64,000 nucleotides of DNA from Bradyrhizobium sp. Ash2021 (GTDB lineage Bacteria; Pseudomonadota; Alphaproteobacteria; Rhizobiales; Xanthobacteraceae), in the NCBI RefSeq assembly GCF_031202265.1, contig NZ_CP100604.1:2958501-3022500 (forward strand), given 5' to 3'. The number at the start of each line of letters is the position of its first letter. Positions within the stretch are counted from its first letter, which is position 1. The notes beneath the pieces are model-generated. The model was not told the origin of the DNA and searched no databases. It saw only the letters and a program-made list of their open reading frames with translations. A program made the position numbers and the translations under genes. Below are positions 20,774 through 38,082 of the stretch, piece by piece.

Positions 20774-20816
20774 CGTAAACCGAAGGCGGCATGTTCGAGT
20801 CATGCCTAGATCGCCA
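20774..20816 (+). other. tRNA 3'-half-like sequence holding the left attachment site
   Basis: Two adjacent stem-loops look like the 3' half of a tRNA: a weak arm with loop TTCGTAA (anticodon CGT position), then GGCATG-TTCGAGT-CATGCC, a perfect T-arm with a canonical seven-base loop, then a seven-base acceptor-like strand, G and CCA. No D-arm or 5' acceptor strand lies upstream, so it is not a complete tRNA gene. Confidence 0.45.
20802..20816 (+). repeat. attL core, 15-bp direct repeat
   Basis: ATGCCTAGATCGCCA here is repeated exactly at 38068-38082 in the same orientation. It sits beside the 3' end of the integrase gene and inside a tRNA-3'-end-like sequence, as expected for a tyrosine-integrase crossover site. 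Confidence 0.75.
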
Positions 20817-20838
20817 CATCTTCAAACTCCCTTTGATA

Positions 20839-21951
20839 TCACTGATGCTTTTCGGCGATTTGGCTCAGTGGGTCGGCCGCTGAGACAATCTTTGTTCCTG
20901 AAATGAGCTTCGCCGCGGCGTTGTCGGCCAGCCTCATCTTGTTGGCTTGCTCACAATAGCGTTGCGCCTCGTCGATGGTTTTCCATCCATGCCACGCCAT
21001 CAATTCATACGGCGTTGCGCCGTGCATCGCCTGCCTGATCGCGCTGGCCTTGCGCAGACCGTGCGCCCTGCCCGGTACGCCAGCCTCGCGGCATTGAGCA
21101 GCGAACCAATTCCCGAACGATGCGGCCGAACCAAACGGCGTGCCGCGCTCGGTTGTCAGCCACACCATGGACGACACCGCGCCGTCGCGCCGATGCAGCG
21201 CCAGCTCGGCGACCAGCTCCGGCAATAGCTGGATCGAGAACGCGGTTCCTGTTTTTTGGCGGGCCATGGTGAGACGGCCGCCCTTGACGCGCTGGTCGCC
21301 CATGCGGACAACATCGCTTCGCGCGTGGCCGGTCATCAGTAGAACCTCAAGCGCCAGCCTCGCCTTGGTGCCGGGCTTGTGCTTGGCGCGGTACTGCTCG
21401 ACCTCATCGTCGGTCCACGCATGGAAGCCCTTTGACTTCGGCCTGTCGGTCAGCGTCACCGACGCGAGCGGATCGGCCGTCATCAGTCCGAGTCCGATGC
21501 AGTACTTGATGAAATGACGCATCGACCTTTTGAAATTGCGCTGCGGGTTCGGCTTGAGCTTGCTCATGATCGCCTGCAGCGCTTGCGCATGCATCATGTG
21601 GGTCCGCTTGTCGCCGTGCTCGGTGCGGATCAGACGCTCTAGGATGGCGCGGCGGTTCTGTTGCGTGGTCTTGCCTAGGCCGTCTTTGAACACGGTGCTG
21701 TCGTAATAGCCGATCAGCGCGGCGTTGACGGTGCCCGCAACAGGCGGCCGATTGACGATTTGCTTCGAGTCGACCGACAGCTTCTCGGTGGCGGCCTCGA
21801 GCGCGGCGTTGAAAGTCGGACTCCATGGCAGGACATCATCCGCAACCTGGATCCTGATCTTGGGTCGACCCGGCAGCCGCAGGTAATAGACCTGCTTTCC
21901 CCAGGGCGTGACATAGGCCTGAACATGCTTGGGAAGCTTCTGTCTGGTCAT
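20839..21951 (-). CDS. Tyrosine-type site-specific integrase
   Basis: The product is about 370 aa starting MTRQKLPKHV, with an ATGA overlap to the upstream gene; a start at 21966 is also open. The C-terminal catalytic domain shows the family residues: Arg in TGHARSDVV, Lys in ARQKTG, HGLRKASA (His and second Arg), His in WHGWKT and the nucleophile Tyr in EAQRYCEQ. The N-terminal part is a SAM-like arm- and core-binding domain. It would integrate and excise the element at the 15-bp core just downstream. It is last in an operon with an RHH gene and two small genes. Confidence 0.92.
   Translation of the reverse strand: MTRQKLPKHVQAYVTPWGKQVYYLRLPGRPKIRIQVADDVLPWSPTFNAALEAATEKLSVDSKQIVNRPPVAGTVNAALIGYYDSTVFKDGLGKTTQQNRRAILERLIRTEHGDKRTHMMHAQALQAIMSKLKPNPQRNFKRSMRHFIKYCIGLGLMTADPLASVTLTDRPKSKGFHAWTDDEVEQYRAKHKPGTKARLALEVLLMTGHARSDVVRMGDQRVKGGRLTMARQKTGTAFSIQLLPELVAELALHRRDGAVSSMVWLTTERGTPFGSAASFGNWFAAQCREAGVPGRAHGLRKASAIRQAMHGATPYELMAWHGWKTIDEAQRYCEQANKMRLADNAAAKLISGTKIVSAADPLSQIAEKHQ
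20877..20889 (+). repeat. Left copy of 13-bp subterminal repeat
   Basis: CCGCTGAGACAAT occurs here, 61 bases inside the left core, and again at 37970-37982, 86 bases inside the right core, in the same orientation. It is a candidate integrase arm site. This copy lies within the integrase 3' coding sequence. Confidence 0.4.
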
Positions 21952-22133
21952 TTGACTGAGTCCCATTCGTTGACGTTCGGATCTTGCGGTGCCGCTGCCG
22001 GCGGATCGAAGTCAAGCAGGATTGACCCGTCCTGGCGCACTTCGGTGCGATGCACCTTCAGGCCGGCCTTCTCTGCGGCCTTCAGCGCCTTGGTGATGTC
22101 GCCCTGCTTGAAGGTGTGCTCGCCGCGGGACAT
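21948..22133 (-). CDS. 61-aa protein in the integrase operon
   Basis: A small basic protein beginning MSRGEHTFKQGDITKALKAA. Its start overlaps the previous stop (TGATG) and its stop overlaps the integrase start (ATGA), so it is translationally coupled. The first residues resemble those of the neighbour at 22133-22558 (MSRAAHTFRRTD), hinting at a shared short motif. A role in integration or excision control is possible from position only. Confidence 0.65.
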   Translation of the reverse strand: MSRGEHTFKQGDITKALKAAEKAGLKVHRTEVRQDGSILLDFDPPAAAPQDPNVNEWDSVK

Positions 22134-22558
22134 CAGGTCGTCTCGACCAACTGCGGCGGGACATCCATCATAGCGTCGAGGCCCAGCCGGCTCTCGTAGT
22201 ATCCGGTCTTTAGGATGGCCTTAGCCAGCTCTCGCTTGTCCTCGAACGCAATCCCGAAATAGGCGTAACTCTCTGCGTCATGCAGCGTGACATCAATGGC
22301 GTGTTCGCCATCTAGTGTCAGCCAGCCGTGCGCAAAGGCAACACCCCCCGAGTAATGAATGCAAAGCCCTTCGACATAGGTTGCGCGTCCATCTATGGCG
22401 AGGCTCTGAGAATTTCGGAAACAATCCTTGCGCCTCATCTGGCGGAAGCCTTTCGGGCGCTTGATGCCGGTGAACAGCTTGCCGTTGGCGCATAGGTGGT
22501 CGAAGGTTGCGCGGTACTTTGAGTCTGTCCGCCTGAAGGTGTGCGCGGCGCGGGACAT
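22133..22558 (-). CDS. 141-aa element protein of unknown function
   Basis: Begins MSRAAHTFRRTDSKYRATFDHL. It is soluble, with no catalytic motif recognised. The middle segment (HYSGGVAFAHGWLTLDG) is aromatic- and glycine-rich. It is tightly packed between the RHH gene and the 61-aa gene, sharing stop/start bases with both. The N-terminal resemblance to the 61-aa neighbour is visible. I do not recognise the family. Confidence 0.65.
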   Translation of the reverse strand: MSRAAHTFRRTDSKYRATFDHLCANGKLFTGIKRPKGFRQMRRKDCFRNSQSLAIDGRATYVEGLCIHYSGGVAFAHGWLTLDGEHAIDVTLHDAESYAYFGIAFEDKRELAKAILKTGYYESRLGLDAMMDVPPQLVETT

Positions 22559-22729
22559 TTAGCCGGCCGCCTTCTTCGGCTCGGAATCCATTCGCTGCCT
22601 GATGCAGCGCAAGATCTCGGAGTTTTGACTGGCCAACGTGCGCGCCGCTTCCTTCTCGATCCAGTCCTTAACGTCCTTTGGCAGGCGAATGAGCACTTGG
22701 ATGGTTTCTTCCTTGTGGACCATCGGCAT
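22559..22729 (-). CDS. Ribbon-helix-helix (Arc-like) regulator, leftward
   Basis: The likely product is 56 aa from ATG 22729; a TTG at 22762 would give 67 aa. The sequence TIQVLIRLPKDVKDWIEKEAAR followed by SQNSEILRCIRQRM is the Arc layout: a DNA-contacting beta strand, then two helices. It heads the integrase operon and is divergent from a second RHH gene, so the 22730-22806 gap is a likely switch between the two. Confidence 0.75.
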   Translation of the reverse strand: MPMVHKEETIQVLIRLPKDVKDWIEKEAARTLASQNSEILRCIRQRMDSEPKKAAG

Positions 22730-22764
22730 CGGCCTATTCCCTAGTCTAGGGTTGCGTATCAAAC

Positions 22765-22787
22765 CTATATGTGCTTCGATATAGCAC
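22765..22787. promoter_or_regulatory. Nested inverted repeats between divergent RHH genes
   Basis: CTATAT (22765-22770) pairs with ATATAG (22779-22784), and GTGCT (22771-22775) pairs with AGCAC (22783-22787). The overlapping palindromes lie between two divergent Arc-like regulator genes, so they are good operator candidates for one or both. Confidence 0.45.
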
Positions 22788-22806
22788 GGAGATATCTGGG
22801 GGTCAA

Positions 22807-23136
22807 ATGGTGAAAAAGACCATCATCAGCAGGAGGACGGACCGCGGGTCAGATCAGTTTCAGCTCCGGCTTCCCAAGGGAATGCGGGAACATCTGGCTG
22901 AAGTAGCGGAGCACCAAGGGCACACGATGAACGCCGTGATCGTCACCGCCCTGGCGATGTATTTCGAGACCGAGAGGCAGTCCGCCGCACTCCGCGCGCA
23001 GATCCAAGCACCCGGTCAAGGGTCAACAGACACCAAGGGTTTCGAGGACCTCGTCGTTCGATTGGACCAGCTCACGGAGCTAATTAGGAAGGCCGACACA
23101 AGCCTCGTTCAGCTTCTCAAGGAGAAAATAAAATGA
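22807..23136 (+). CDS. Ribbon-helix-helix (Arc-like) regulator, rightward
   Basis: The product is 109 aa. SDQFQLRLPKGMREHLAEVAE followed by HTMNAVIVTALAMYFE gives the Arc/MetJ-type strand-helix-helix. A C-terminal extension (VRLDQLTELIRKADTSL) is predicted helical and may oligomerise. It is divergent from a second RHH gene and monocistronic, with a hairpin terminator downstream. It likely controls the integrase operon, its own promoter, or both. Confidence 0.8.
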   Translation: MVKKTIISRRTDRGSDQFQLRLPKGMREHLAEVAEHQGHTMNAVIVTALAMYFETERQSAALRAQIQAPGQGSTDTKGFEDLVVRLDQLTELIRKADTSLVQLLKEKIK

Positions 23137-23195
23137 CGCCCTCCGGGCCTCACCCACGCGCCGCTTGATCTGCATAGCCCAAAAACGAAAGAAAG

Positions 23196-23220
23196 GCCCC
23201 GGCGCCGAAGCGACCGGGGC
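23196..23220. terminator. Hairpin terminator between converging genes
   Basis: GCCCCGG (23196-23202) and CCGGGGC (23214-23220) form a seven-pair stem. Read leftward it is followed by CTTTCTTTCGTTTTT, and rightward by a GATTTTT run ten bases on. It could end transcripts from both sides. Confidence 0.6.
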
Positions 23221-23259
23221 ATGTCGATTTTTGCGACCTGAAAAGAGGGCCGGGTTTTT

Positions 23260-23442
23260 TCACCCTCCGGCGAGCTGATCAGCCTTCGGCAGTTGGTCGA
23301 GAAACTCCATGAACGCCTGCAGGGTCAGGCCGTCCTCGAGAAACACGACATGATCGCCGTTCTCGCGCGGCGCGCGCAGTTTCACCTGCCAGCCGTCCCA
23401 TGACGCATAGAGGCCATCGCCGAGGTAAGTTTCACGGTTCAT
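23260..23442 (-). CDS. 60-aa conserved phage-type protein
   Basis: The product begins MNRETYLGDGLYASWDGWQVKLRAPR and is compact, mixed in charge and soluble. Small proteins with this opening are familiar from Rhizobiales prophages, but I know no function. It overlaps the 3' end of the LexA/S24-like gene by 11 bases, so the two form one leftward unit ending at the 23196-23220 hairpin. Confidence 0.7.
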   Translation of the reverse strand: MNRETYLGDGLYASWDGWQVKLRAPRENGDHVVFLEDGLTLQAFMEFLDQLPKADQLAGG

Positions 23443-23935
23443 TTTTGCCTCCCACCGCTTGGGCGGGCTTATCTTCCGCTTGATAGATCCCGACGACGCG
23501 ACCGATCAGCGCCTCCTGGATCTCATCCGCCATGCGCGGACCATCGGCCATCGATCGGTGCGAAATTTCCGGCATCAGGCTGGGGGTTTGCTCCACGACT
23601 TCGACGTAGGGCTCGAAATTCAGGCATTGGGTCCAGAAGCCAATAAAAGACCTGCCTTCGCAGGTGTGGGACCGAGCGATCACTTGTTGAATATAGCAAA
23701 CTTCCTCAACCTGCCGCGGCCATCTTGCCCGCCGGTGGAATCGCACGAGATAGACCTCGCCGTGCTGAGGCTCGGTGTCGGTTGTATCAACGATGGCGAA
23801 CTCACCGGCGCGAAGATGCGGGGCGCTGTCGTCATCGGTAACCGGACGCAGGATGCAGCCGGCCGGGATGTGATCGAACATCGTCAGTGCTCGCAAAGGC
23901 AGTGGCGTGCTGGGCATATTTTCGGCTTGGGACAT
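23432..23935 (-). CDS. LexA/S24 C-terminal-like protein, possible element repressor or relic
   Basis: The product is 167 aa. The central part AGCILRPVTDDDSAPHLRAGE followed by FAIVDTTDTEPQHGEVYLV resembles the S24/LexA C-terminal domain, including a serine before APHLRAGE, where the family has S-M-x-P-x-L-x-x-G-D. The catalytic lysine is not evident and no N-terminal HTH is seen, so it may lack self-cleavage or DNA binding. It is divergent from an RHH gene with two palindromes between, which fits a lysogeny switch. The assignment is a fold-level guess. Confidence 0.55.
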   Translation of the reverse strand: MSQAENMPSTPLPLRALTMFDHIPAGCILRPVTDDDSAPHLRAGEFAIVDTTDTEPQHGEVYLVRFHRRARWPRQVEEVCYIQQVIARSHTCEGRSFIGFWTQCLNFEPYVEVVEQTPSLMPEISHRSMADGPRMADEIQEALIGRVVGIYQAEDKPAQAVGGKNEP

Positions 23936-24034
23936 TGTTGTTGCCTCCGCTGGCTTTGATGGCGGCTCTATGCCGGCGCCGTAGCCCGGGGCGGTGCTCC
24001 TGGCCTTGGGAAACTTCCCTTTGGGCTTGTTTTT

Positions 24035-25228: not shown

Positions 25229-25486
25229 TTAGTTCAACACGCACGGCGTTGCGTCGCCCGCGGCTTCAATTGCGCGCTTGACGCGTATAACGGTGTCGAT
25301 GAACGATTCCGCGACCGTCGCGGCCGCATCGGCGCCGAGCTGCTGCAGCCGATCTTCCAACTGCGCCTCGATGGCATACAATTCGAGCATCATCGAATCC
25401 TGAGGCGTGCCGACGAAGCGCTGACCGAGACAACCTGCGGCTGCGACCATTTCCGCAATCCATTCGTCGGTCATCACGTCAGCCAT
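25229..25486 (-). CDS. 85-aa protein after the tape-measure gene
   Basis: A mostly helical, acidic protein (DEWIAEMVAAAGCLGQRF, LYAIEAQLEDRLQQLGADAA). It starts 11 bases after the tape-measure-like stop and is the last leftward gene of the phage-like block. The function is unknown. In siphophages this position holds tail genes, but no tail motif is seen. Confidence 0.6.
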   Translation of the reverse strand: MADVMTDEWIAEMVAAAGCLGQRFVGTPQDSMMLELYAIEAQLEDRLQQLGADAAATVAESFIDTVIRVKRAIEAAGDATPCVLN

Positions 25487-25497
25487 CGTTCAAACCC

Positions 25498-27477
25498 TTA
25501 CTTATCGGGCCAATTATGGTCCCCGCCATAGTGCTGACCCATGCCGTCGGCGGCCGGCGCCTGTAGAGGATGCTCGCTCAGCGACGCCTGTGCCGTGCTG
25601 ATGGCTTCAGCCAGTGGCTTGCCATCCAGATTGATCGTCAGCGCGATCGGCGCCAGCGTCGCCTTCGGCGCGACACTCGTTCCGCCCGCAAAGACACCGC
25701 CAGGGCCTGCGGGCATCCCCCTGATGGCGTCTGCGATCGCGGTGGCGGCCTTCTCTGCAGCGCTGTTGCCGGTGATGACCGCGTGATGATCCATGTTTTT
25801 CAAATACTGTTCAGCGACGCCCAAGGTGCCACCAGCAAGGCCACCGATCGCGGCGCCACCCAAAGTACCGACGCCAGGGATGAATGAACCAGCAAGCGCG
25901 CCGACGAGCGCGCCCTCGCCAGTGCGCGCGCCTACGGTGGCCGTGCTCCGGCTGGGCAGAACAGACCTGATCCCCTCCAAGACACTCTTGAGATCGTGCA
26001 ATCCAACGTTGACAGCCGGCAAAACGGTCTTGCCGAGATCCATCATGGTAATGTTGAATTCCTGCATCGCCGTGCGGGCATTCTGCACGGTGCTGCCTTC
26101 CCTGTAGCTCTCGGTAAAGCCGGCATATCTATTCTTGAAGTCCGGCGATTCCATCATCTCGCGCAGGCTTTGCACTTGCTGGCGTACCGCCGGATCGGCC
26201 AACAGCGCAAAGCCGCCGCCGCCCTGTGCTCCAAATAGTGACCTCTCGATCGCCGCCCGTCGCTCGACCGGGATTTTCGGCGCATTGGTACCGCCGATGT
26301 CGAGCATCTTGAGAAGATCGGGCTTGCCGTCCGTGAACCACGTCGGCTTGCCCTTTTCATCTGACAGCCCGAGTTCCTTCAGCGCGGCCTCATGCTTCCT
26401 ATACATCATCTTGCTCATGAGCGACGTGCCAGGCATCGCCCTGATCGCCATTTCCCTCAACCAGGTGCCCGATTTGGTATTGGTCGCACCGGCGCGGGTC
26501 AGCGCGGTGCCGAGCAGAAGCGTCTGCATAGGGTCGATCTCGAGGCCGCTCTGCAACAGCGGCACCGCATAGCTCGCCGCGCGTTCGATCGAGCCGAGAG
26601 ACGCCGGATTTGCCGTCGACAGGAACGCGAACGCCGGCGCCAGTTTCTTGATCGCTTCCGGCGAATATTGCTTGGTCATGTGCGCAAGCCCGATCAGCGC
26701 GCGCATCGATTCTTCCGGTGTCGAATCCTTCAGCCGTGCTTCGATTGTCGCGGCGCGCAGCATCTCAGGCAAGACGTCGATGCCGCCGCCAGGCGTGCCC
26801 TGGAACATCCTTATTTCCTGCTTGGCCGATTTGGCGATGTCCTTCAGGCCGTAGCCGGACTGCACCATCGAATCCTGCAAGATCTTCCGAAACTTCGCCC
26901 GGTTGACGTCGTTCTGTTCCAGGCCGCTATGGTAGATCAGCTGGAAGACGGCGTCCTCCATCTCCGCGGCTTCGTAGACGCCATAGCCGAGCAGGCCTGC
27001 GCCAGCCATCGCGCCGGTAGCTGCCCCGCCCATGCGCCCGCCGCCCATGCGAATGTGGGTGCCGCCTGGCATGGTGACACCTGGACCGTAGACATGCGCG
27101 CCGCCGCCGAGCCAGCCCGGCCGGTGAGCCCCGCCGCCACCGCCGGCCCTTGGAGGCGGCGCGCCCGCGCGGCCACCAGTGGCCGCCGCAGCTGCCGCTG
27201 GCAATGCCGTGCGCGCCGCGACCCTCGAAGCGTTCCCGATCGCGAGGCGCGCGGCACCGGCATTTTTCGCAACATCACCCCATGCCGTTGCCAGCGCGCC
27301 GGCCTCAGAAATCGCCGCTGTCAGTGCGACCGGCGACTTGCCAAACGCCGCCAACGAAGCGCGCGCCTGATCTAACGCGGTGTTCAACCTGCGAACTTCA
27401 GCGAGGATCTTGCGCAGCGCCGGTGAGGCTTCGTCTATGACGCGAAAAATACTTCCAACTTCATAACTAACGATCAT
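25498..27477 (-). CDS. Phage tail tape-measure-like protein
   Basis: The product is 659 aa. The N-terminus has helical heptads (VIDEASPALRKILAEVRRLN). A Gly/Ala/Pro-rich region at about 100-160 is followed by a TMP-like core with a conserved helical block (YSPEAIKKLAPAFAFLSTA, LLLGTALTRAGATNTKSG, and GSTVQNARTAMQEFNITMMDLG) and a glycine-zipper hydrophobic segment (GALVGALAGSFIPGVGTLGGAAIGGLAGG) typical of tape measures. These proteins set tail length and reach the host membrane. At roughly 1.5 Å per residue it would span about 100 nm. No tube, terminator or baseplate gene accompanies it. Confidence 0.75.
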   Translation of the reverse strand: MIVSYEVGSIFRVIDEASPALRKILAEVRRLNTALDQARASLAAFGKSPVALTAAISEAGALATAWGDVAKNAGAARLAIGNASRVAARTALPAAAAAATGGRAGAPPPRAGGGGGAHRPGWLGGGAHVYGPGVTMPGGTHIRMGGGRMGGAATGAMAGAGLLGYGVYEAAEMEDAVFQLIYHSGLEQNDVNRAKFRKILQDSMVQSGYGLKDIAKSAKQEIRMFQGTPGGGIDVLPEMLRAATIEARLKDSTPEESMRALIGLAHMTKQYSPEAIKKLAPAFAFLSTANPASLGSIERAASYAVPLLQSGLEIDPMQTLLLGTALTRAGATNTKSGTWLREMAIRAMPGTSLMSKMMYRKHEAALKELGLSDEKGKPTWFTDGKPDLLKMLDIGGTNAPKIPVERRAAIERSLFGAQGGGGFALLADPAVRQQVQSLREMMESPDFKNRYAGFTESYREGSTVQNARTAMQEFNITMMDLGKTVLPAVNVGLHDLKSVLEGIRSVLPSRSTATVGARTGEGALVGALAGSFIPGVGTLGGAAIGGLAGGTLGVAEQYLKNMDHHAVITGNSAAEKAATAIADAIRGMPAGPGGVFAGGTSVAPKATLAPIALTINLDGKPLAEAISTAQASLSEHPLQAPAADGMGQHYGGDHNWPDK

Positions 27478-27709
27478 TTAACTTTCCTTTGCAGCATCGC
27501 GGATTCGCGAGAATTCTTGGCACGCACTGGAGGACGTTCCGACCGGCATGTTCGGCGACGATTCCATGCGCATTAAAAACGGATTCGAAGATGCGCTCGA
27601 CGACGGCAGGGTGTTCGGCCAGGGTCTGCGGCATCACCGGGCCCAACGCCGCGGTCAGCTCGTCCACGATTTCTTGAGCAACTTTGCGGTCCCGCGCTCT
27701 TCGGTTCAT
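27467..27709 (-). CDS. 80-aa protein overlapping the tape-measure start
   Basis: The likely start is MNRRARDRKVAQEIVDEL at 27709; an upstream in-frame start at 27757 is possible. It is helical, with three cysteines near the C-terminus. Its stop overlaps the start of the tape-measure-like gene by 11 bases. In many phages a tail-assembly chaperone is found right here, but no frameshift signal or family motif supports that. Confidence 0.55.
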   Translation of the reverse strand: MNRRARDRKVAQEIVDELTAALGPVMPQTLAEHPAVVERIFESVFNAHGIVAEHAGRNVLQCVPRILANPRCCKGKLNDR

Positions 27710-27805
27710 TTGGTGCGCACCCATCAAAAAAGAAATGCCGCCGCAGCGTCCAGTCATGTCGCCAGCGGCGGATCAGCGGACGTTCGAGCGGACGCCGCAG
27801 ATTCC

Positions 27806-28450
27806 TCACGCTGCTTTCTCGGCTTGCTCGGGCGCCAGATTCCAATACCGAGATTCCGACACCGCCAACGGTTCATGCTTCATTTCATCGGTGATCGCGC
27901 CAGGAAAGAGTCGCCAAAAAAACTTCGGCAATGAGGCCCGCACGCGCCTTGCTCCTGTTGCACCGTCGTGATCGTTCATTCCGGCCGAGCTCCGCGGCAA
28001 CGCCTCCATGTTAATAATCTCGCGGCCCAGCCTTTCGTATTCGGCATAGAGGCGGGCGAAATCGGCGGTCACGATGTCAATCTGGGCGGCCACATCGACA
28101 CGCTTTCGCATCAGGCCTTCTGCAGCGAAGCGCGCTAACGCGCGCCGTGCAGATTCGGCGGCCTTCTCTGCGATGGCTAAATTTGCTTCCGCCTCGGGCA
28201 ACGCTATTCGTAAGTCGGAAATGGTTTGCTCGGCGGTGTGCTGTTCGCTTCGCGCGGCTTTGATTGCTTCGATAGCGGCTGGATCGCCAAGAGAAGCTTT
28301 CAGCGCGTGGACCTCGCGTTGTTTTTTTGCTCTCATCAGGGCGAGGCCCGCGACGTTGAGCTGCGTCTCGATTTTGGCAATCGAGTTTTTCCAATCCGCT
28401 GCGATCGCGGCTGCGGTTTCGGCTTGCTGCTCGATCTGTTGTTTTTGCAT
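27806..28450 (-). CDS. Coiled-coil element protein, possible scaffold
   Basis: The product is 214 aa from ATG 28450, with GGAA upstream; the longer frame back to 28648 runs through the previous gene. The first ~150 residues are Ala-, Glu- and Lys-rich heptads (AETAAAIAADWKNSIAKIETQ, LPEAEANLAIAEKAAESAR), a long coiled coil. The C-terminal part is less regular. In the phage-like block between terminase and tape measure, a scaffold role is conceivable, but no capsid gene is present for it. Confidence 0.6.
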   Translation of the reverse strand: MQKQQIEQQAETAAAIAADWKNSIAKIETQLNVAGLALMRAKKQREVHALKASLGDPAAIEAIKAARSEQHTAEQTISDLRIALPEAEANLAIAEKAAESARRALARFAAEGLMRKRVDVAAQIDIVTADFARLYAEYERLGREIINMEALPRSSAGMNDHDGATGARRVRASLPKFFWRLFPGAITDEMKHEPLAVSESRYWNLAPEQAEKAA

Positions 28451-28496: not shown

Positions 28497-28859
28497 TTAC
28501 GGAATTGTCGGGAGCGTGTCCCAGATGCCGAGTACCACGCAAAAAAACCGCACGCTTTTGCCGGCTCCGAGCGCGAAGGCCACATTGGCGCCGAGCGTGT
28601 TGACGGCGTCGCCCGCGGGAAAGTTCGCGCCGTCGCCCTTGAAGCCACCTTGAGAGGCCGCGGCCGGAAACACGTTCATGCTATTCGCCGCGGCGTTCTT
28701 GATGGTGTATTCCAGGCCAGGGCCCGCGCCAGGAAGCACCGCGGAATCGCCAGTGGTTGCGACGACGGTGAATCTAGAAAAGGTGCGGCTGATCTGCGTT
28801 GCCAATGTCTGGCCGCCGCCGGCAAACGCGGTCATGTTGTTCTGATACGAGGCGTCCAT
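28497..28859 (-). CDS. 120-aa beta-rich, possibly virion-associated protein
   Basis: The product is rich in small residues and beta strands (RFTVVATTGDSAVLPGAGPG, NSMNVFPAAASQ, DAVNTLGANVAFALGAGKS). Similar sequences occur in phage fibre or decoration proteins I recall from Rhizobiales prophages. No cysteine or catalytic motif stands out. It lies where head genes would be in a complete phage. The assignment to virion structure is tentative. Confidence 0.55.
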   Translation of the reverse strand: MDASYQNNMTAFAGGGQTLATQISRTFSRFTVVATTGDSAVLPGAGPGLEYTIKNAAANSMNVFPAAASQGGFKGDGANFPAGDAVNTLGANVAFALGAGKSVRFFCVVLGIWDTLPTIP

Positions 28860-28913: not shown

Positions 28914-29099
28914 TCAGTCCCTCACTACTTCGACCGGCGCGCCGAGCTTCGTCAGCAGTTCGATTGCGTCGGCGTCGGTGACGGTCGCGCCTTCCGGCCA
29001 TTCGCGCCACAGGTGCACGCCGCGGTCTGGGGCATAGAAGACAAAGCGCTCGAGCAAGCGAATCTGGTAGGCAGGCTTGATCGATTGCGATTCCATCAT
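28914..29099 (-). CDS. 61-aa phage-type protein
   Basis: The start at 29099 overlaps the previous stop (ATGATGG), giving MMESQSIKPAYQIRLLERF; a start at 29117 is also open. The product is small and soluble, ending EVVRD. It is tightly coupled to the gene before it. No function is known. Confidence 0.6.
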   Translation of the reverse strand: MMESQSIKPAYQIRLLERFVFYAPDRGVHLWREWPEGATVTDADAIELLTKLGAPVEVVRD

Positions 29100-29434
29100 C
29101 CGAATCGCCTCTTGCATTCGTCCAAGAATTTTTTGCGCTCGACCGACGACATTTCCTTGGCCGTTTTGCTCAGGTCCAGCGGTTTGAACTTTTCCGATTC
29201 GCGTTTGAGCTCGGCGAGCCTTGCGGCTGCTTCTTCGGGAGTCATGTTGCGCGCATGTTTCGCGAACAGATCCGGCCAGCGCTCTTTGAGCCCGACCATC
29301 AATTGGTCCGCGCCTGTGACTTCGCCGTTTGGTTCCAGCGTCACCTTGCTCATGTCGGCGAGCTTCAGCCCGTCCAAATCGATCATGCCCGCTTTCAGTG
29401 CCGCCGCCTTCAAGGCTTCGTTGTCGTGTTTCAT
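29096..29434 (-). CDS. 112-aa protein next to terminase
   Basis: The start MKHDNEALKAAALKAG at 29434 overlaps the terminase nuclease stop (ATGA). It is a charged helical protein (MTPEEAAARLAELKRESEKF) with a lysine-rich C-terminus. The earlier in-frame start at 29494 lies inside the nuclease gene. Neighbouring overlaps suggest a working operon. It may be a terminase-linked or head accessory protein, not identified. Confidence 0.6.
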   Translation of the reverse strand: MKHDNEALKAAALKAGMIDLDGLKLADMSKVTLEPNGEVTGADQLMVGLKERWPDLFAKHARNMTPEEAAARLAELKRESEKFKPLDLSKTAKEMSSVERKKFLDECKRRFG

Positions 29435-30168
29435 CGCTCTATCCAGTTCATGTAAAAGCTTTCGGTTTTTGTGATGTGCTTGCGGGCGCGCCACACAGCG
29501 ATTGCCAGCGCCAGCACCAAATCATCATGCTTGCCCTCGCGCGCGCTGAACGTCAGGTGGCCGGCTTCCGTGTATTTGACGCGAAAATCCTGCAACTCCC
29601 GCACCAGCTCGGCCGCTTCGGTGAGCTCTTTTTGAATGTGCAATCTGCCTTCGTGCAGCAACGCCTGAAGGGATGACACCAGCGTCATCTTCGGCACCCG
29701 CCAGGTCTTGCCCTCATTCGTCTCGGCATCGCCGCCGGTGATCATCACGCCCGTGAAAGTCAGTCCGGCGGAGGTGAACATGTCGCAAACCGGCTTGCCG
29801 ACGCCGGTCTGATCAAGCGCCAGATCAATTTTGCCGCTCCAGATCGGACGCTCCAGCAGTCGGCCAACATGCGCCACGATCGCGGGATACACGGTGCCGA
29901 GCGGCACGCGCTCGAGATAGCCGCATTGATAGATCGTTGGCTTTTCCTCCTTCCATATCGGTGTCGAACGCTGAACATCATGCGACACCAGAAAGCGAAC
30001 ACGCCGCACCACCGCAATGGCCGTCGGGTCGTGGCTCTGGCCCAAATCGACGCCAATGAAATAGCGCACGTCCTCGCGGCTGACCTCCGCGGCCATCTCG
30101 AAGGTGGGCCGTCTGGCGACGTCAGCCACAGGGCCCCGGATGACGTCAAAGGAAGGGCGAAAAATCAT
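29431..30168 (-). CDS. Terminase large subunit, nuclease part (split gene)
   Basis: The product is 245 aa. It carries the RNase H-like nuclease core: YFIGVDLGQSHDPTAIAVV with the first acidic residues, LALDQTGVG in the middle, and EGKHDDLVLALAIAVW with the last acidic pair. It starts with its own ATG at 30168, within the end of the ATPase frame. Removing one T from the TTTTT run at about 30161 (plus strand AAAAA) would fuse both parts into one ~485-aa terminase, the usual length. It could still be translated separately by coupling. Confidence 0.8.
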   Translation of the reverse strand: MIFRPSFDVIRGPVADVARRPTFEMAAEVSREDVRYFIGVDLGQSHDPTAIAVVRRVRFLVSHDVQRSTPIWKEEKPTIYQCGYLERVPLGTVYPAIVAHVGRLLERPIWSGKIDLALDQTGVGKPVCDMFTSAGLTFTGVMITGGDAETNEGKTWRVPKMTLVSSLQALLHEGRLHIQKELTEAAELVRELQDFRVKYTEAGHLTFSAREGKHDDLVLALAIAVWRARKHITKTESFYMNWIER

Positions 30169-30892
30169 CGCGCAAGGCCTGTTCGATTAGAGCTGTTGAG
30201 AACGCACTGGTGTTCTGGTCGATGAAGGCACACTCGTATTCTTCGGCAAAACGCATCGGCCCAAAAGTCTGCAGTTCTTCGGCGAGGAATTCCTTCGAAA
30301 TGCGGGGACAATCGACGCCCTTGACCGAGAACCGTTCCCAGTCTTCCCCGCGCTCCCACTGTTCGTACAGCCAACCCCTACGTCCCGCGGGCGTCGATAA
30401 CGCAATGAACCGGCCGGAGGTGGTCGCCAACATCGGGCGCACCGCCTGCAACAGTTCGTCCGGAACCCTAGCCGCTTCGTCCATGATAACGAGGCTGGCG
30501 GCGGAGTAGCCCCGCACAGTCTTCTCTGAGCCCGGCAGGCTGATGATGCGGCTGCCGTTGCTCAACTCCATGCGCGTCAAGGATTCCTGTTCCGCGGCAG
30601 GCGCGCCAGTCAGCTGTTGCCAAGCTGTGCGAATTTTCTTGAATAGCTCGGTCGACTGCGGCTGGGATGGGCTGATCACGATGACCATGGCCGGCGCGGC
30701 GTATAGAGCCTCCCACAAAGCCACGATCGCGGTGATGGTCGACTTGCCCCATTGTCTGCAGCACAGCACAAGCGTCTTGCGCGACGTCGTGGTGAGCAGC
30801 TGTGACTGGATTGCGTCCGGCTCGATGCCGCAGTCCCTCGCCAAAGTGCAGGGGTCGAGCGCCCGGGCCAGCTGCCGGTACGGGCTAAGCAT
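30146..30892 (-). CDS. Terminase large subunit, ATPase part (split gene)
   Basis: The product is 248 aa. Walker A appears as CCRQWGKST (about Lys50), and Walker B with catalytic glutamate as LVIMDEAARVP, followed by a C-motif ALSTPAG. This is the DNA-packaging motor. The frame ends early at DDFSPFL, where a complete terminase would run on into the nuclease domain, found in the +1 frame downstream. Its start overlaps the small terminase stop by 8 bases. Confidence 0.85.
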   Translation of the reverse strand: MLSPYRQLARALDPCTLARDCGIEPDAIQSQLLTTTSRKTLVLCCRQWGKSTITAIVALWEALYAAPAMVIVISPSQPQSTELFKKIRTAWQQLTGAPAAEQESLTRMELSNGSRIISLPGSEKTVRGYSAASLVIMDEAARVPDELLQAVRPMLATTSGRFIALSTPAGRRGWLYEQWERGEDWERFSVKGVDCPRISKEFLAEELQTFGPMRFAEEYECAFIDQNTSAFSTALIEQALRDDFSPFL

Positions 30893-31526
30893 GGGCGCCG
30901 CCTAGCGAAGCCGCGCTCGACGCTAGCTGCTGCTCAATCATAGGCGCAGCCATCGGACGCGGTGCGGATCTGGCTTCGAGCTCGGCCAGCCCTTCGAGCA
31001 CGGCCGCCATGGCCGCAGGGTGCCCCGCCAGTCGCTTGATGAGCATCGTCTGCAGGTCCATGAAGACCGGACTGTTGATGAAGTTGACGCTGGTGTTCAC
31101 GTTCATCACGCCGGGGGAGCGCATGATCTCGCCGGTAATCCTACCAATCTCGCGTAAGGTCTCGTTCAACCGGCCGGCCAGCGCGCTGGTGCCGTAGCGA
31201 TCGTTCACGCTCGCAGCCAACTGGAATTGGGTCATCAGGGTGCCACGGACGACGCTGAGATACTGCAACACCGAGAGGCCTTCCGAGGCCGCCTTCTGCG
31301 CCAGTTCCGCGATCGGGACATCGGCCAGGTATTGTGCCCGGAGGTCTTCCGGGACATGCCGCGCCATGTGCCGCCATAACGCGTCCCTGCCGATCGCGTA
31401 TTTCGCGGCAATCGAGTCGAGCGAGGCGCCGGCTATGCGCGTCGCCTCGATGCGAGCGCGATCCGGATGCCTGCAAACGGTGCAAGCAGGGCCTTTCTTG
31501 GATTTAAGTCTGGATCTGGCGGTCAC
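30885..31526 (-). CDS. Terminase small subunit-like protein
   Basis: The product is 213 aa. The N-terminus has a CxxC-HPDR segment (CTVCRHPDRARIE) and a helix-turn-helix (ASLDSIAAKYAIGRDALWRHM), a common form of phage packaging-site recognition protein. The remainder is helical. It sits directly upstream of the large terminase and overlaps it. Two copies of a GTGGCCGTCGAGACC repeat lie just upstream of its start. Confidence 0.75.
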   Translation of the reverse strand: MTARSRLKSKKGPACTVCRHPDRARIEATRIAGASLDSIAAKYAIGRDALWRHMARHVPEDLRAQYLADVPIAELAQKAASEGLSVLQYLSVVRGTLMTQFQLAASVNDRYGTSALAGRLNETLREIGRITGEIMRSPGVMNVNTSVNFINSPVFMDLQTMLIKRLAGHPAAMAAVLEGLAELEARSAPRPMAAPMIEQQLASSAASLGGAHA

Positions 31527-32396: not shown

Positions 32397-33020
32397 TCAC
32401 GCGGCTTGCTTGGCGCGCTTCGCGATCTTGCTGATGGTGGCGCGGCTGCAGCCGGTCGCGGCCTGTATGCTGCTCCAGCTCTGGCCAGCGGCGATCATGC
32501 TGGCGATACCGGCATTGCGCTCGGTATCCTCGGGGCGGCCTTTGTAGAGGCCTTCGGCCTTCGCCTTCGCCTGACCTTGCGCCTGCCGGCGGCGCCGGTC
32601 GTCGTAATCCTTGCGAGCGACCGCGGCCAGCATGTCGAGCAGCATGCCGTTGATCGCCTCGAACATCCGCACCGTGAATTCATCGGCGGCACTCGTCGCC
32701 ATCAGCCAGCTGGTCGGCAGATCGAGCGCGACAACGCGAAGTCGCTTGGCAGCCAGATCGGCCTTAAGCGCTTCCCAATCGGAAGCGGTGAGGCGGGACA
32801 AGCGATCGACCTGCTCGACAAGCACGATGTCGCCGTAGCATGCATCGGCGAGCAGGCGGAACAGCTCCGGCCGCGCCAGCTTGGCGCCGCTTTCGTTCTC
32901 GACATACCAGGCGACGATCGTGAGCCCGCGCTCGGCCGCGAATGCCTGCACCTGGTCGCGGGCCCGGCTAGCGTCCTGTTCGTCGGTGGAGGCTCTGAGG
33001 TAAGCGCGAACGTAGCACAT
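32397..33020 (-). CDS. Serine recombinase (resolvase/invertase family)
   Basis: The product is 207 aa from ATG 33020; the extension to 33068 is less likely. Catalytic serine is about Ser11 in RAYLRASTDEQDASRARDQ. The dimer region shows VEQVDRLSRLTASDWEAL and the family arginines. A C-terminal helix-turn-helix (SWSSIQAATGCSRATISKIAKR) binds the site. The length fits a small resolvase. It may resolve multimers of a replicated element or invert a segment. A terminator follows. Confidence 0.9.
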   Translation of the reverse strand: MCYVRAYLRASTDEQDASRARDQVQAFAAERGLTIVAWYVENESGAKLARPELFRLLADACYGDIVLVEQVDRLSRLTASDWEALKADLAAKRLRVVALDLPTSWLMATSAADEFTVRMFEAINGMLLDMLAAVARKDYDDRRRRQAQGQAKAKAEGLYKGRPEDTERNAGIASMIAAGQSWSSIQAATGCSRATISKIAKRAKQAA

Positions 33021-33332
33021 CCGGAATTCCTCGGTTTGATTAGGATGGTTCACATCATAACAGTTCATTTTGAATTGTCAAACGCCATTATTTGAACCAT
33101 AAAAAGGCTGGTTCGCTGGAAGCATACCCTAATTGGACCGGGTGAGATCGAGGGGAACGCGACGCGCGACTTGCCGTTGTTATGTGGCGCGGGTGAAGTC
33201 CCTGGCCTGGGCATCGCTGGCGCGGCCCCGCCGCCCACGACACGACAAGCGGCGGGGACGACTTTAAGGCCTCAGCGTAGGGTCTCCCCCGGAAGCGCTG
33301 GGGTCGCTTTTTTTTGCGGCGAGTTGGAAGGC
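33021..33332 (+). ncRNA. Candidate structured transcript ending in a terminator
   Basis: Rightward of the divergent recombinase start there is no gene, but strong structure: CCCCGCCGC (33226-33234) pairs with GCGGCGGGG (33249-33257). At 33291-33315, GAAGCG/CGCTT-type pairing is followed by eight T residues, a good rightward terminator. A short RNA or leader transcript is plausible. Promoter and expression are not shown. Confidence 0.35.
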
Positions 33333-34628: not shown

Positions 34629-34877
34629 CCCTACCAAGCATAGAGCAAAGTTTAACCGCGCGCGAGGCTGCCACAATCAAATTGACCCACTACCGGCGCT
34701 CGGCACCGGCTGGTATTTGATTTCCCCTAAAATCCCTTTGCTGAGCCAAAGCGGCTTGGCGAGGGACGGTGTTGAGGCACCGGGTGCGAGGGGAAGAGGG
34801 AGCGCGGGAGCGTAGGAGCCCCAGGCGACGGGAGCGGTAGCGCGGAGGGGCGGAGAAACATCCGCCTCCCCGTAGGG

Positions 34878-35095: not shown

Positions 35096-35116
35096 TTACG
35101 GGGTCCGTTTTGAGGT

Positions 35117-35467: not shown

Positions 35468-35491
35468 TTCTGGTTCTCCTCTTTTGTTTGG

Positions 35492-36847
35492 TTAGAGCGG
35501 CCACTGCAAATCCCCCTCGCAGGCGATGCGGTTTGCGGCGACGAGTTCGCGCCGGAACCTGTTGAAAATCGTGATGGCGCTTTTCCCGTTTCTCTTGACG
35601 TCGACCAGGCCGCGGGCATTGCACTCGCTCATCCACTGGTCGCGGTGAGCGGTGCGGCGGCTTCCCATCATCACGACTTCATCGCCTGCCAGGACGTTGA
35701 TGAGTGCATCGAGCGCCTTCTGGGTCTGCGGAGACACCTTGCCGGGCAGGCGCGCATTGGTGATCTCGTGTGTCCAGCGGTCATCGACGAGGGTGATCTT
35801 GACCTCCTGGAAATCGAACCGCGTTGCCGGCGTGCGCTCCCGAGCTTTCTTGAACGACATGGAAAACGACACGTCGGTCTCGTCGCGTCTCACCGCATCG
35901 CAGTGAATGACGGTGTCCATTTGCCATTCCCGGGTTTTGTCGCCGTAGGAACGGGTTTCATCATGGCCTGTATGGTGTATCCAGATTTGCCCGATTGCGC
36001 GCTTTGTCAGTGATAGAGCCCACGGGATCGTCTGTTGCCATGGTTCCGGATCTTTCATGTCGCCGACGGTGAGGCACATAATGTTGTCGGCGATGACGAG
36101 ATCGATCCCGCCCAGCTTTTTGATCAAGGCATTCATCCACTCCTGGCCTTCGATCGTATTCAGCGGCTTGAACCCCTTGATATCCTCGTGACTGAGCGCA
36201 AAGAACGTTTTCGGGCTCGCGCCGACGCGCCGTTCCTCGTCGAGTACGCGCTCCCTGAGCAGACGGCGCGACATTTCACCGTCGATGTAGAGCACCCGGG
36301 CGGTGCGGCGCGCCTGCCAGTGCAGGAAGTCCTGGCCGGCGGCGATGCGCATTCCCAAAGCCAAGCCGAAATTGGTTTTTCCCAATCCGGTCGCAGCCGT
36401 CAGCAGGCAACGGGTCGTGGTTGTCAGCCAATTGCCCATGATGAAATCAGGGGGCGGCAGATCGCGCTCGCGCCACTCGTCCAATGTGAGCGGCGGCAAC
36501 GAAGTGATTTCGATCTGCGGCGGCGCGTGATCCGGATCGGCATCAGCATTTTCCGGGATCTCGGCCCACGGTGGCGGCTCGTGCCCGTTCGTCGCGCGCG
36601 CGTCGTCGACCCGTGTGACCGCGCTTTCGATCTGGTACTTGATGACCTCTTCCGCGCCGCTGCCGGGCTCGCCTGCCAAGTCGTGCGCCGTCGCTATATC
36701 CCAAAGCTCTTGCTTCACCATCTCGCGGCTGAAGCCGGGGACCGTGCCGCCGATCATGCTGACGCGGTCGACGAACAGGCTCATCTTGGCGCCGGCCGGC
36801 GCGAGCGAAAGATCCTTGCTAATGAGGGCGAGCTTATCCATCGTCAC
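35492..36847 (-). CDS. RepA-like hexameric helicase / AAA ATPase of the element
   Basis: The product is 451 aa. Walker A is AATGLGKTNF at about 152-160. Walker B is LVIADN in a RecA-like core, preceded by RVLYIDGEMS. The layout resembles RSF1010 RepA and phage replicative helicases that load single-stranded DNA. The C-terminal ~110 residues (QTQKALDALINVL to the end) look like a winged-helix DNA-binding extension. Upstream are an 82-aa protein and SSB, forming a replication module. The start overlaps the 82-aa gene by 14 bases. Confidence 0.8.
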   Translation of the reverse strand: MTMDKLALISKDLSLAPAGAKMSLFVDRVSMIGGTVPGFSREMVKQELWDIATAHDLAGEPGSGAEEVIKYQIESAVTRVDDARATNGHEPPPWAEIPENADADPDHAPPQIEITSLPPLTLDEWRERDLPPPDFIMGNWLTTTTRCLLTAATGLGKTNFGLALGMRIAAGQDFLHWQARRTARVLYIDGEMSRRLLRERVLDEERRVGASPKTFFALSHEDIKGFKPLNTIEGQEWMNALIKKLGGIDLVIADNIMCLTVGDMKDPEPWQQTIPWALSLTKRAIGQIWIHHTGHDETRSYGDKTREWQMDTVIHCDAVRRDETDVSFSMSFKKARERTPATRFDFQEVKITLVDDRWTHEITNARLPGKVSPQTQKALDALINVLAGDEVVMMGSRRTAHRDQWMSECNARGLVDVKRNGKSAITIFNRFRRELVAANRIACEGDLQWPL

Positions 36848-37082
36848 TCAGCCTCCACCGTGCGAAAGCTTCGGCGAGGATCCATTGAATTCGGTCCTGA
36901 CCGAATTTTGCGACAAGGCCTTGCGCGACCGCGGCTGCCTGCAACGTGTCGACCGAGTCCTGCAAACTGTGAAGGCCATGCGAAACGAGGTGCGCGCGCG
37001 CCTCGCAGCGCGCCAGGAAAACGTCGATCGGCGCCGGCTTCGGGCTTTGATGATGATCGATCCGGAGGGCTGCGCTGATCAT
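36834..37082 (-). CDS. 82-aa protein in the replication module
   Basis: Starts MISAALRIDHHQSPKPAPID at 37082, overlapping the SSB stop (ATGA), and ends inside the helicase start. It is helical and soluble. A helicase-loading or priming partner would fit the position, but no motif shows this. Confidence 0.6.
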   Translation of the reverse strand: MISAALRIDHHQSPKPAPIDVFLARCEARAHLVSHGLHSLQDSVDTLQAAAVAQGLVAKFGQDRIQWILAEAFARWRLSDDG

Positions 37083-37519
37083 AGGGCGGCCTCGAACGGA
37101 ACGTCGTCATTGAAAAACGCTGGCCCTCCTGCTGCGGTCTCTGGCGTCGCGTCGGGCAAGATCGATCGCTTCGCGATCTCATCGCCGGCTTTGCTGCCGG
37201 CTGGCGGTGCCTTCGGCTTTCGCTCCTTTGGCGGAGCGCGCAGCGCAAGCACATGGTCGACGAAGACCGTGCGCGAAATTTTGCCGTTGTAGATCTCCAA
37301 CTTGACGCTGCCTTGTGCGCTGAGCTTGTCGCCCTCGCCGAGACGCATCAGCTCGGCCTGCGCAGTGTCGCCGAACACCAGGAGGTTCCAGAAATCGGCC
37401 GCGTTGTTGTCTGCCGATGCTGTCCGGATTGATGCGGTGGCGTAGGTCTTGCCGGTCTTCGAAGTTTTCAGCTCGGGATTCTTGAAGAGGGCGCCGGAAA
37501 TGAGGATGTGAACGCTCAT
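37079..37519 (-). CDS. ssb: Single-stranded DNA-binding protein
   Basis: The product is 146 aa. An OB-fold is indicated by VHILISGALFKNPELKTSKTGKTYATASIRT, then DFWNLLVFGDTAQAEL and GDKLSAQGSVKLEIYNG. The C-terminus has the acidic tip NDDVPFEAAL, close to the D-D-x-P-F tail that recruits replication partners. It is shorter than the host SSB, as usual for mobile elements. It lies first but one in the leftward replication operon. Confidence 0.85.
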   Translation of the reverse strand: MSVHILISGALFKNPELKTSKTGKTYATASIRTASADNNAADFWNLLVFGDTAQAELMRLGEGDKLSAQGSVKLEIYNGKISRTVFVDHVLALRAPPKERKPKAPPAGSKAGDEIAKRSILPDATPETAAGGPAFFNDDVPFEAAL

Positions 37520-37854
37520 GCCGTCCCCCCTGTCGCGAAGCGCAGCCGTCGGCGCGCGCGCCGTTTAGGCGCCCCCGCGGCGTCGCGATCGATCAAGATT
37601 TGAACGTAGGCGGCGCGGCCAGGCGCGAGCACACAGACCGGATATTCGTTTGGGAATGGCAGCCTGGTGCGAATGTGGACGTCGGGGCGTTTGGCGAAAA
37701 AAGCGTAATCCGACTCGCCGGCGGTATCGGCCAGCAAAGGCGCTTGCGGTTTCGCGGTATCGGGGATATTTGTCTGATCTAGGCTGCCAGGCCGGTTATC
37801 AGACTTCTTCAGAGGCCCGTCCCCGATGACGGGCCTCGCCGTTTTGAACGTCAT
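37516..37854 (-). CDS. 112-aa first gene of the replication operon
   Basis: The likely start is MTFKTARPVIGDG at 37854; 37863 is also open. It is soluble, with PFPNEYPVCVLAPGRAAYVQ in the middle and an arginine-rich tail. Its stop overlaps the SSB start (ATGA). Codons about 6-14 contain a perfect ten-pair inverted repeat (37812-37837) that could fold in the mRNA. Function unknown. Confidence 0.6.
   Translation of the reverse strand: MTFKTARPVIGDGPLKKSDNRPGSLDQTNIPDTAKPQAPLLADTAGESDYAFFAKRPDVHIRTRLPFPNEYPVCVLAPGRAAYVQILIDRDAAGAPKRRARRRLRFATGGTA
37812..37837. promoter_or_regulatory. Ten-base-pair hairpin in the start of the replication operon
   Basis: GAGGCCCGTC (37812-37821) and GACGGGCCTC (37828-37837) form a perfect ten-pair stem with a six-base loop, inside codons 6-14 of the first gene. 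It could slow early translation or bind a regulator. No T-run follows leftward. Confidence 0.35.
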
Positions 37855-37883
37855 GTTGCGCAACCTGCTTAGAGGAAGCGCCC

Positions 37884-37982
37884 GGTGGCCATCGAGACCT
37901 CGTCAGGCTGTGAGTGGTAAGAGAAGGGCTGTGGTCGAAGGTGGAATTACCCCGCTGTCCTGGTGGCGGCCCGCTGAGACAA
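37884..37982. repeat. Right-end repeats: GTGGCC(A)TCGAGACC copy and subterminal CCGCTGAGACAAT
   Basis: CCCGGTGGCCATCGAGACC at 37884-37902 is related to the repeats at 31570 and 31612. CCGCTGAGACAAT at 37970-37982 equals the copy at 20877-20889 near the left end. The second pair looks like integrase arm sites, the first like an element-specific regulatory repeat. Confidence 0.45.
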
Positions 37983-38067
37983 TGCCGGGAAAAGCCGTTT
38001 CGCCCCAATACGTGCCTTTAGCGCGGTGAGACAGCCCAAGTGGTTGATTTAGGCCGTCATGCTCGTT

Positions 38068-38082
38068 ATGCCTAGATCGCCA
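38068..38082 (+). repeat. attR core, 15-bp direct repeat
   Basis: ATGCCTAGATCGCCA repeats the left core exactly. It lies 11 bases from the oxyR stop codon, so the element sits immediately behind oxyR. Upstream sequence (GTCATGCTCGTT) keeps partial similarity to the left T-arm. Confidence 0.75.

Follow-up and report, generated by a model that had tools for sequence, protein, structure and literature searches.

A 64,000-nucleotide stretch of the Bradyrhizobium sp. Ash2021 genome (contig NZ_CP100604.1, positions 2,958,501 to 3,022,500, or G000:C1:2958501-3022500; hereafter the window) carries a 17-kb element at 20799-38082 that encodes a terminase and a tape measure protein (TMP) and has no recognised capsid gene. 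We consider it likely that this element is an integrative phage satellite, which would package its DNA into the heads of a helper phage with its own terminase and supply its own TMP. The sequence comparisons described below indicate that the element belongs to a real and conserved family of satellite-like elements, which combine a two-gene terminase with a tape measure of the helper type and in which no capsid was recognised, and the element probably travels inside the particles of another virus. The host genome is 9.70 Mb long, in two contigs.

The terminal repeats of the element, 20799-20816 and 38065-38082, are equal at 17 of 18 bp, and the 15-bp exact ends named in a preliminary description of this sequence were recovered as a run of 15 consecutive matches within them. 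Repeat search and homology placed attL in a 48-nt 3' half of a tRNA-Arg(CCT)-like sequence (20769..20816, plus strand; core repeat 20799-20816), which is 88% identical to the intact tRNA-Arg(CCT) gene near G000:C1:9058800, while attR is the 18-bp repeat at 38065..38082 (plus strand). With at most two mismatches, the att 16-mer occurred three times in the window against 0.04 expected, and none of 100 shuffles gave three; the third copy of the core, at 38399-38416, is imperfect (78%) and lies inside a LysR gene. No complete tRNA gene was found in the window, and no Rfam family matched in 18000-41000. The boundaries of the element are consistent with the repeat, since colinearity with relative G025 on the right resumes at 38103 and similarity to relative G031 on the left runs only to 20692. 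Thus an integrase, tRNA-derived att ends and a small size, the features by which a satellite is recognised, are all present.

Reading from the integrase, the order is integrase, a 61-aa gene, regulators, an 85-aa gene, TMP, small genes, a scaffold-core-like gene, the nuclease half (TerLC) and the ATPase half (TerLN) of the large terminase (TerL), the small terminase (TerS), resolvase, helicase and SSB. The small and large terminase of the preliminary description are both there, with the corrections that the large one consists of two open reading frames (ORFs) and that the small one has no profile match. TerLN (30146..30892; this and the other late genes are on the minus strand) matched phrog_7579 (E = 2.6e-57) and Terminase_6N (E = 4.6e-9), and TerLC (29431..30168) matched phrog_27743 (E = 5.5e-44) and Terminase_6C (E = 5.4e-4, just below the Pfam cut-off). 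The putative TerS (30885..31526) was assigned by position and conservation, with 57% identity in relative G180 and 37% in G081. Downstream of TerLC lie a scaffold-core-like protein (29096..29494, likely start 29434, 112 aa; PF06810, E = 1.4e-7, just below the Pfam cut-off; 45-46% identical to its counterpart in relative G204), a 67-aa gene (28914..29117; 58% in L041), a 120-aa protein (28497..28859; 43% in L231), a coiled-coil protein of 214 aa, or 280 aa from an upstream start (27806..28450; 42% in L041 and 28% in L133), and a small gene of 85-96 aa (27467..27757), which has no relative among the proteins compared and stands where G204 has tail assembly chaperone (TAC)-like and neck genes. 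The full-length TMP of 659 aa (25498..27477), identified by homology, and the 85-aa gene (25229..25486; 34% identical to a gene beside the TMP of relative G168) follow. From TerS to the 85-aa gene, adjacent genes overlap or sit at most 54 bp apart, which bears out the compact layout described earlier.

The match of the tape measure by profile was weak, yet its homology to the TMPs of phages with a sheath gene in their tail modules was clear, so that the tape-measure-like gene of the preliminary description stands. IMG/VR contigs of up to 67 kb carried full-length relatives at 58-59% identity (L201-L207), and L208 a partial relative at 65%; they were compared within at most 22 kb around the TMP, and in L201, L205 and L207, whose gene order was read, tube and baseplate genes were named by reading and without profile. 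Within the genus, 5 of 265 genomes had a TMP match, the element's own genome included. Among them G140 is by profile a full prophage, with TerL, portal, scaffold, major head protein, sheath (E = 2.7e-7), neck and tail proteins, and its TMP is 61% identical to that of the window in pairwise alignment (E = 1e-224; 54% over residues 1-646 by tblastn). Identity to phage TMPs reached 77-95% over residues ~199-330 and fell to 29-37% in the last fifth. Element TMPs measured 621-659 aa and phage TMPs 630-673 aa, and because these lengths match, tail length should stay unchanged.

We further compared the 39 proteins of the G140 morphogenesis region with seven elements (the window, G204, G180, G168, G081, L041 and L133) at E <= 1e-3, and six of them matched: the TMP in the window, G204, G180 and G168; a TAC-like protein in G204, L133 and G081; a neck protein in G204 and L133; a hub-like protein in L133; a 300-aa transglycosylase-like protein, encoded between tube and TAC, in G081; and TerL in G180. 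'TAC-like' is our name for phrog_20383, which has no assigned function, and 'hub' our name for the phrog_52 tail protein. The portal, scaffold, capsid and sheath of G140 and its remaining morphogenesis proteins had no match in the seven elements at this threshold. Some of the repeat-bounded relatives described below have no more than the end of a tape measure: G134, G005 and G106 encode a protein of 295-378 aa, and that of G134 matches the C-terminal part of TMPs (phrog_24 positions 819-1034 of 1151); three proteins of the set share the phrog_24 C-terminal match, the other two being taken as the 79% and 74% relatives of the G134 protein. Two proteins of the same set matched a tail fibre family (among 25 of the 37 families, those listed). 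The stand-alone C-terminal tape-measure-like genes in three bounded satellites are those at L017 (6075-6968), L020 (9517-10401) and L030 (5075-6208).

These partial proteins bear on the likeliest alternative, in which the element is a satellite that uses its TMP as a weapon: as a competitor or dominant-negative, the protein would spoil helper tails in defence and form no part of a virion. A C-terminal piece alone could not set tail length, and its occurrence in some relatives favours such a role, as does the report that satellite-borne defence can target tail assembly (Tai, PMC11364771; Rta, PMC12987554). On the other hand, the window TMP is full length and closely similar to phage TMPs in the central segment given above, and the TAC-like, neck or hub partners in G204, G081 and L133, which the window itself lacks, would be needless for a simple poison. 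We therefore regard a purely antagonistic TMP as unlikely, though it is the least improbable of the alternatives.

The preliminary description called for a conserved, syntenic family of 15-20 kb with att ends and without a capsid, and its interpretation is supported. Among 12 Bradyrhizobium relatives tried, eight lie between exact direct repeats of 22-52 bp that delimit 9.9-18.4 kb, and each of the eight has an intact tRNA gene (Ser, Gln, Pro or Arg) overlapped by one of its repeats; no bounding repeats were found for the other four, G204, G168, G056 and G012. G204, for which no att repeat was found, keeps the late order of the window: TerS (62% over residues 80-212, the N-terminus unmatched), TerLN (43%), TerLC (39%), the scaffold-core-like protein (45%), the 67-aa gene (46%), the 120-aa protein (72%), the coiled-coil protein (66%), the TAC-like and neck genes, TMP (39%), the 85-aa gene (55%), an Arc-like regulator (60%) and integrase (30%). 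Between its TerS and integrase the only ORFs above 250 aa are TerLN, TMP and integrase, leaving none of capsid or portal size. L041 has TerLN (83%), TerLC (75%), the 67-aa and coiled-coil genes and, on the opposite strand, a type I restriction system; it showed no TMP match. G168, near a contig end, shares the integrase (45%), the 61-aa gene and TMP (65%). G180 has an integrase, a helicase, TerS (57%), a one-piece TerL, small genes and TMP (62%), with a 201-aa protein in the coiled-coil position; its TerL is of another kind than the window's and is 53% identical to that of the full prophage G140, so the similar layout outlives replacement of the motor. Defence-type genes followed TerL in three of six relatives tested (four of nine proteins). 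Gene calls in the relatives were made with a simple script and not with a published gene finder.

Selection on the element's genes was assessed by the ratio of nonsynonymous to synonymous substitution rates (dN/dS), for which several dS values were near or beyond saturation. The ratio was 0.17 (L041) and 0.32 (G204) for TerLN, 0.14 and 0.25 for TerLC, 0.22 and 0.17 for the coiled-coil protein, 0.35 for the 120-aa gene, 0.35 for integrase and 0.22-0.29 in four pairs for TMP; it was less clear for TerS (0.32-0.48), the scaffold-like gene (0.64), the 67-aa gene (0.27-0.43) and the 85-aa gene (0.35-0.77). The less constrained genes speak for a decaying prophage, in which portal, capsid, tube and lysis genes have been lost and the rest is relict, and so does the scaffold-like gene, which amounts to a scaffold core. 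Decay does happen, since a fragment of the TerLC C-terminus (90% identity over 63 residues) stands at 7.62 Mb of the same genome (G000:C1:7619968-7620165), which by its sequence we take to be the remnant of an older copy, a second element. However, the named late genes of the window are open, the TerL halves, coiled-coil protein and TMP show low dN/dS, and the same headless order recurs in G204 and a similar one in G180. Within 60 kb around G140 only the TMP of the 30 listed ORFs of the element has a match; the element is thus not a simple deletion derivative of that prophage. Simple deletion was likewise rejected on synteny and dN/dS, and no full phage with the element's order was found. A decaying prophage is accordingly improbable, and the earlier view of an evolved compact layout and not random loss is supported by the late order kept in G204 and the low ratios of the TerL halves and TMP.

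The two-gene TerL recurs beyond the element. When 84,980 bacterial and archaeal species, each represented by one genome, were scanned, 128 relatives were detected and 80 of them kept; IMG/VR yielded 82, again with 80 kept. Of the 80 genome loci, 72 encode TerLN and TerLC in separate ORFs (five had no nearby TerLN, two were fused and one had no TerLC); of the 80 from IMG/VR, 61 do so (12, six and one, respectively). Hosts of the genome loci included Alpha- and Gammaproteobacteria, Acidobacteria, Chloroflexi, methanogens and others; in the genus, TerLC matched in 12 of 195 genomes, its own included. Alignment showed D119 and H214-D215 of TerLC in all 11 rows, window included, with D41 nearly invariant, and R46-Q47, G49-K50 and D138-E139 of TerLN in all 10 rows, again including the window; we take the former to be an RNase-H-type motif and the latter Walker-type motifs. 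As the relative frames of the halves differ among members, the split does not reflect one frameshift: with 72 of 80 loci split and the frames varying by member, a sequencing frameshift was rejected and a programmed frameshift found unsupported. By TerLN, the nearest annotated phages are Thermus phage Riverbug and Meiothermus MMP17, in which a single TerL of ~415 aa is followed by portal and head genes.

Some split-TerL loci belong to full tailed phages. In IMG/VR contigs L121, L139, L144 and L161, TerLN and TerLC are adjacent separate genes as in the window, but there TerLC is followed by a portal or head-tail adaptor and a major capsid protein. As a positive control, 60 of the 176 listed proteins encoded after TerLC in IMG/VR loci were examined, and the portal family phrog_64 alone matched 21 of them (the 25 commonest of 130 families). 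The genome loci were represented by 122 of 136 listed proteins downstream of TerLC, drawn from 64 loci in which 3 kb or more follow it; here the 25 commonest of 180 families included portal families with three and one members and several head-morphogenesis families with two. Because IMG/VR is enriched for full phages by design, the contrast between the two sets speaks for detection power and not for a rate. Direct comparison with the IMG/VR downstream proteins gave clear head-gene relatives in 2 of 79 loci (L073 and L119); L090 and L120 had weak matches, to proteins without an assignment, and in the remaining loci no head gene was recognised, and distant ones or early-ending contigs would escape these tests. 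L123 has, by profile, a portal-family protein right after TerLC as well as a tape measure, and L073, by similarity, a head-morphogenesis protein in that place; by gene content both appear intermediate between full phages and the capsid-less type. Two IMG/VR contigs with a two-gene TerL, L125 and L129, are 17.7 and 12.5 kb long and begin and end with direct repeats of 87 and 127 bp, and are therefore probably circular and complete; no head gene was recognised on reading of their gene lists. The methanogen contigs L085, L089, L092, L095, L097, L105 and L107 also have a two-gene TerL, several with an ORF of 677-923 aa just upstream, and may be archaeal satellites of the same kind.

It could be argued that the terminase has a non-packaging role, or that integrase, conjugation or chance transduction alone moves the element, given that the element's own genome yielded no helper and that its resolvase and helicase have relatives elsewhere in that genome. 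Against this stand the retention of TerS, ATPase and nuclease together with a tail gene, and the two apparently circular and complete IMG/VR contigs with a two-gene TerL, and we hold such a role to be highly improbable.

Profiles from PHROGs, Pfam or PADLOC matched no portal, protease or capsid in the 22 of 30 listed element ORFs that were scanned, in agreement with the absence reported in the preliminary description, and the hypothetical genes held no recognisable homologue of portal or capsid. The other eight ORFs are 60-153 aa long, too short for a portal or an HK97-type capsid. By profile the element thus lacks a complete virion gene set of its own, as expected of a phage satellite. The coiled-coil protein was considered as a hidden capsid and rejected: its predicted structure is a long helical hairpin (mean pLDDT 76.7), and none of 548 PDB and 834 viral structure matches reached E <= 0.001. 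No hidden capsid was recognised among the proteins of the relatives either (25 of 37 matched families listed, the 12 single matches unseen). That the element is a complete small phage with an unrecognisable portal and capsid, as several unassigned late genes of 67-214 aa might allow, is the least credible possibility, since the largest such protein is this hairpin of 214 aa (280 aa from the upstream start) and the same profile search detects portals and capsids in G140 and the full split-TerL phages.

We propose that on helper infection the satellite would excise and replicate, and that TerS and the two-part TerL would dock on the helper portal to fill helper heads with satellite DNA. Head assembly could, speculatively, be adjusted by the scaffold-core-like and coiled-coil proteins, the role of the former being the weakest step. 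The element TMP would then join the tube, sheath and baseplate of the helper in the satellite's tail, where it may serve as the satellite's own DNA-ejection plug or allow tails to form despite a blocked helper TMP, as reported for PICI-like elements (PLEs); no shortening of the tail is envisaged.

Several points weigh against this satellite model. Docking of the element terminase on a helper portal is an inference. A joined empty site was absent from the 98 genomes searched, and no resident helper was found in the element's own genome, which has no PF05065 capsid (the one capsid family searched) and no TMP besides the element's copy. The G140 capsid protein was present in 1 of 265 Bradyrhizobium genomes, G140 itself. 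The satellite TMPs were not resolved as a group in the TMP tree, and no tape measure was recognised in G001, G188, G155 and L041, so the TMP is accessory in the family. Elements without a resident helper are known (PMC11389934).

Among described satellites, PLEs come closest in the tail genes. They are reported to encode TMP, TAC and sometimes a hub that are built into chimeric tails with helper proteins, and deletion of tmp lowered transduction by 96-99.9%; such chimeric tails were reported as first seen in PLEs (PMC12987554, 2026), and unrelated satellites, some of the capsid-forming phage-inducible chromosomal islands (cf-PICIs), carry putative tmp genes according to a figure legend of the same paper (Extended Data Fig. 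10). The element resembles the Vibrio cholerae system (PLE11/ICP1) in its satellite TMP, its relatives in TAC-like (G204, G081 and L133) and hub (L133) genes as well, and both involve contractile tails (PMC12987554). Thus the element and its kin, compared by description, hold a gene set similar to that of PLEs from another phage lineage, the window itself contributing the TMP only. The chimeric tails of PLEs have been demonstrated experimentally (PMC12987554). The PLE TMP is given as 20% identical to that of its helper (PMC12987554), while the element's is 58-61% identical to those of candidate helper phages. That paper reports no PLE terminase, as the word 'terminase' does not occur in its main text (PMC12987554).

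The element shares its own TerS and TerL with cf-PICIs and MulchRoom/MiniFlayer, and an integrase with cf-PICIs and MulchRoom, but these encode capsid and portal (PMC10690885), and none was recognised in the element by a search that detects portals and capsids in the full split-TerL phages and G140. In this comparison the element's TerS counts by position and conservation only. Pseudomonas AH14b is a 16.8-kb satellite whose DNA is found in particles made by helper AH14a; it is similar in size, has one helper-like tail assembly gene, which is TAPI and not TMP, and a relative of it has an 18-bp att (PMC4936722). The idea that AH14b is an unnoticed split-TerL satellite was rejected, as neither TerLN nor TerLC had a match in it. 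Small size, integrase, own replication genes and possible head-assembly modifiers recall P4 and the Staphylococcus aureus pathogenicity islands (SaPIs) and other PICIs with TerS. To our knowledge, P4 and SaPIs have no TMP. Both are packaged by the large terminase of the helper (PMC10690885), whereas the element has a two-gene TerL of its own. A putative TerS is present as in SaPIs, yet accompanied by TerL, and the scaffold-core-like gene is a candidate for capsid redirection; among the 22 ORFs scanned, no AlpA, Psu/Delta/Sid or alpha primase, genes typical of P4-like elements, was seen. The best reading is that the element is neither a cf-PICI nor a demonstrated PLE, novelty being judged against the open-access literature, with preprints outside its scope.

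If the satellite model is true, an apparently separate family in soil bacteria, whose terminase is its own and made by two genes and whose tape measure closely resembles that of known phages, would show takeover of a tape-measure module to be a general satellite strategy, with G140-type phages as a testable type of helper. How narrowly a terminase is matched to its portal becomes a question once a motor must act on the portal of another virus, and the division of ATPase and nuclease between two genes supplies a packaging motor that is naturally in two parts. Further islands of this sort could be found by the signature of the relatives, namely bounding repeats and a tRNA site, in some cases with defence genes. 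More tentatively, and with somewhat greater doubt than confidence, we suggest that two-gene-TerL satellites without a capsid may form a large unrecognised class in Bacteria and Archaea, with a full packaging motor and interchangeable tape-measure modules. One particle would then draw its head, motor and tail ejection plug from two genomes, and the TMP, or only its C-terminal part, might be selected so that entry is altered or tail-directed defence evaded.

The remaining genes agree with the preliminary description, whose integrase, regulators, helicase-SSB pair and serine recombinase were all recovered by PHROG or Pfam matches. All but one are on the minus strand: a tyrosine integrase (20839..21966, predicted start 21951; phrog_1, E = 6e-20), 45% identical to that of G168; the 61-aa gene beside it (21948..22133), suggested to encode an excisionase from its position only, without a PHROG match and 44% identical to the equally placed gene of G168; an Arc-like regulator (22559..22762; PF03869, E = 4e-4) and, on the plus strand, a divergent one (22771..23136; PF03869, E = 1.8e-9); a weakly matched S24/LexA-like repressor (23432..23935; PF00717, E = 0.004, below the Pfam cut-off); a serine recombinase/resolvase (32397..33068; PF00239, E = 9.4e-22); an AAA_25 helicase-like protein (35492..36847; PF13481, E = 5.1e-17); and SSB (37079..37519; PF00436, E = 1.1e-7). 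Helicase and SSB are the only clear replication genes. The resolvase region (32413-33257) and the helicase region (35501-36425) have nucleotide relatives of 76% and 66% identity at 5.19 and 4.93 Mb of the same genome, perhaps other islands.

Among the late genes, TMP, the scaffold-like protein and the 120-aa protein had no match in the annotated phage collection, and the IMG/VR scan gave no relative of the coiled-coil protein. A domain related to the 120-aa protein occurs in the phage-like contig G268, in a gene two genes past a putative capsid gene. The scaffold-core-like protein keeps only the core of the scaffolds of split-TerL phages, lacking both the coiled coil at their start and the proline-rich stretch at their end, and showed no clear similarity to the G140 scaffold. 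Its C-terminal motif, [DE]M[ST]xxER..[FW]L..(H/C).R(R/K)FG, is found in the window (29096-29494), L224 (15562-15978) and L041 (10678-10929) and is absent from all other elements among the loci compared; it may be a docking motif. Outside the element, the window contains a lone contractile-tail sheath-like gene (55955-57475; PF04984, E = 8.0e-9) with no other tail genes seen beside it in the gene list, and this is the sole match to the family in the genome.

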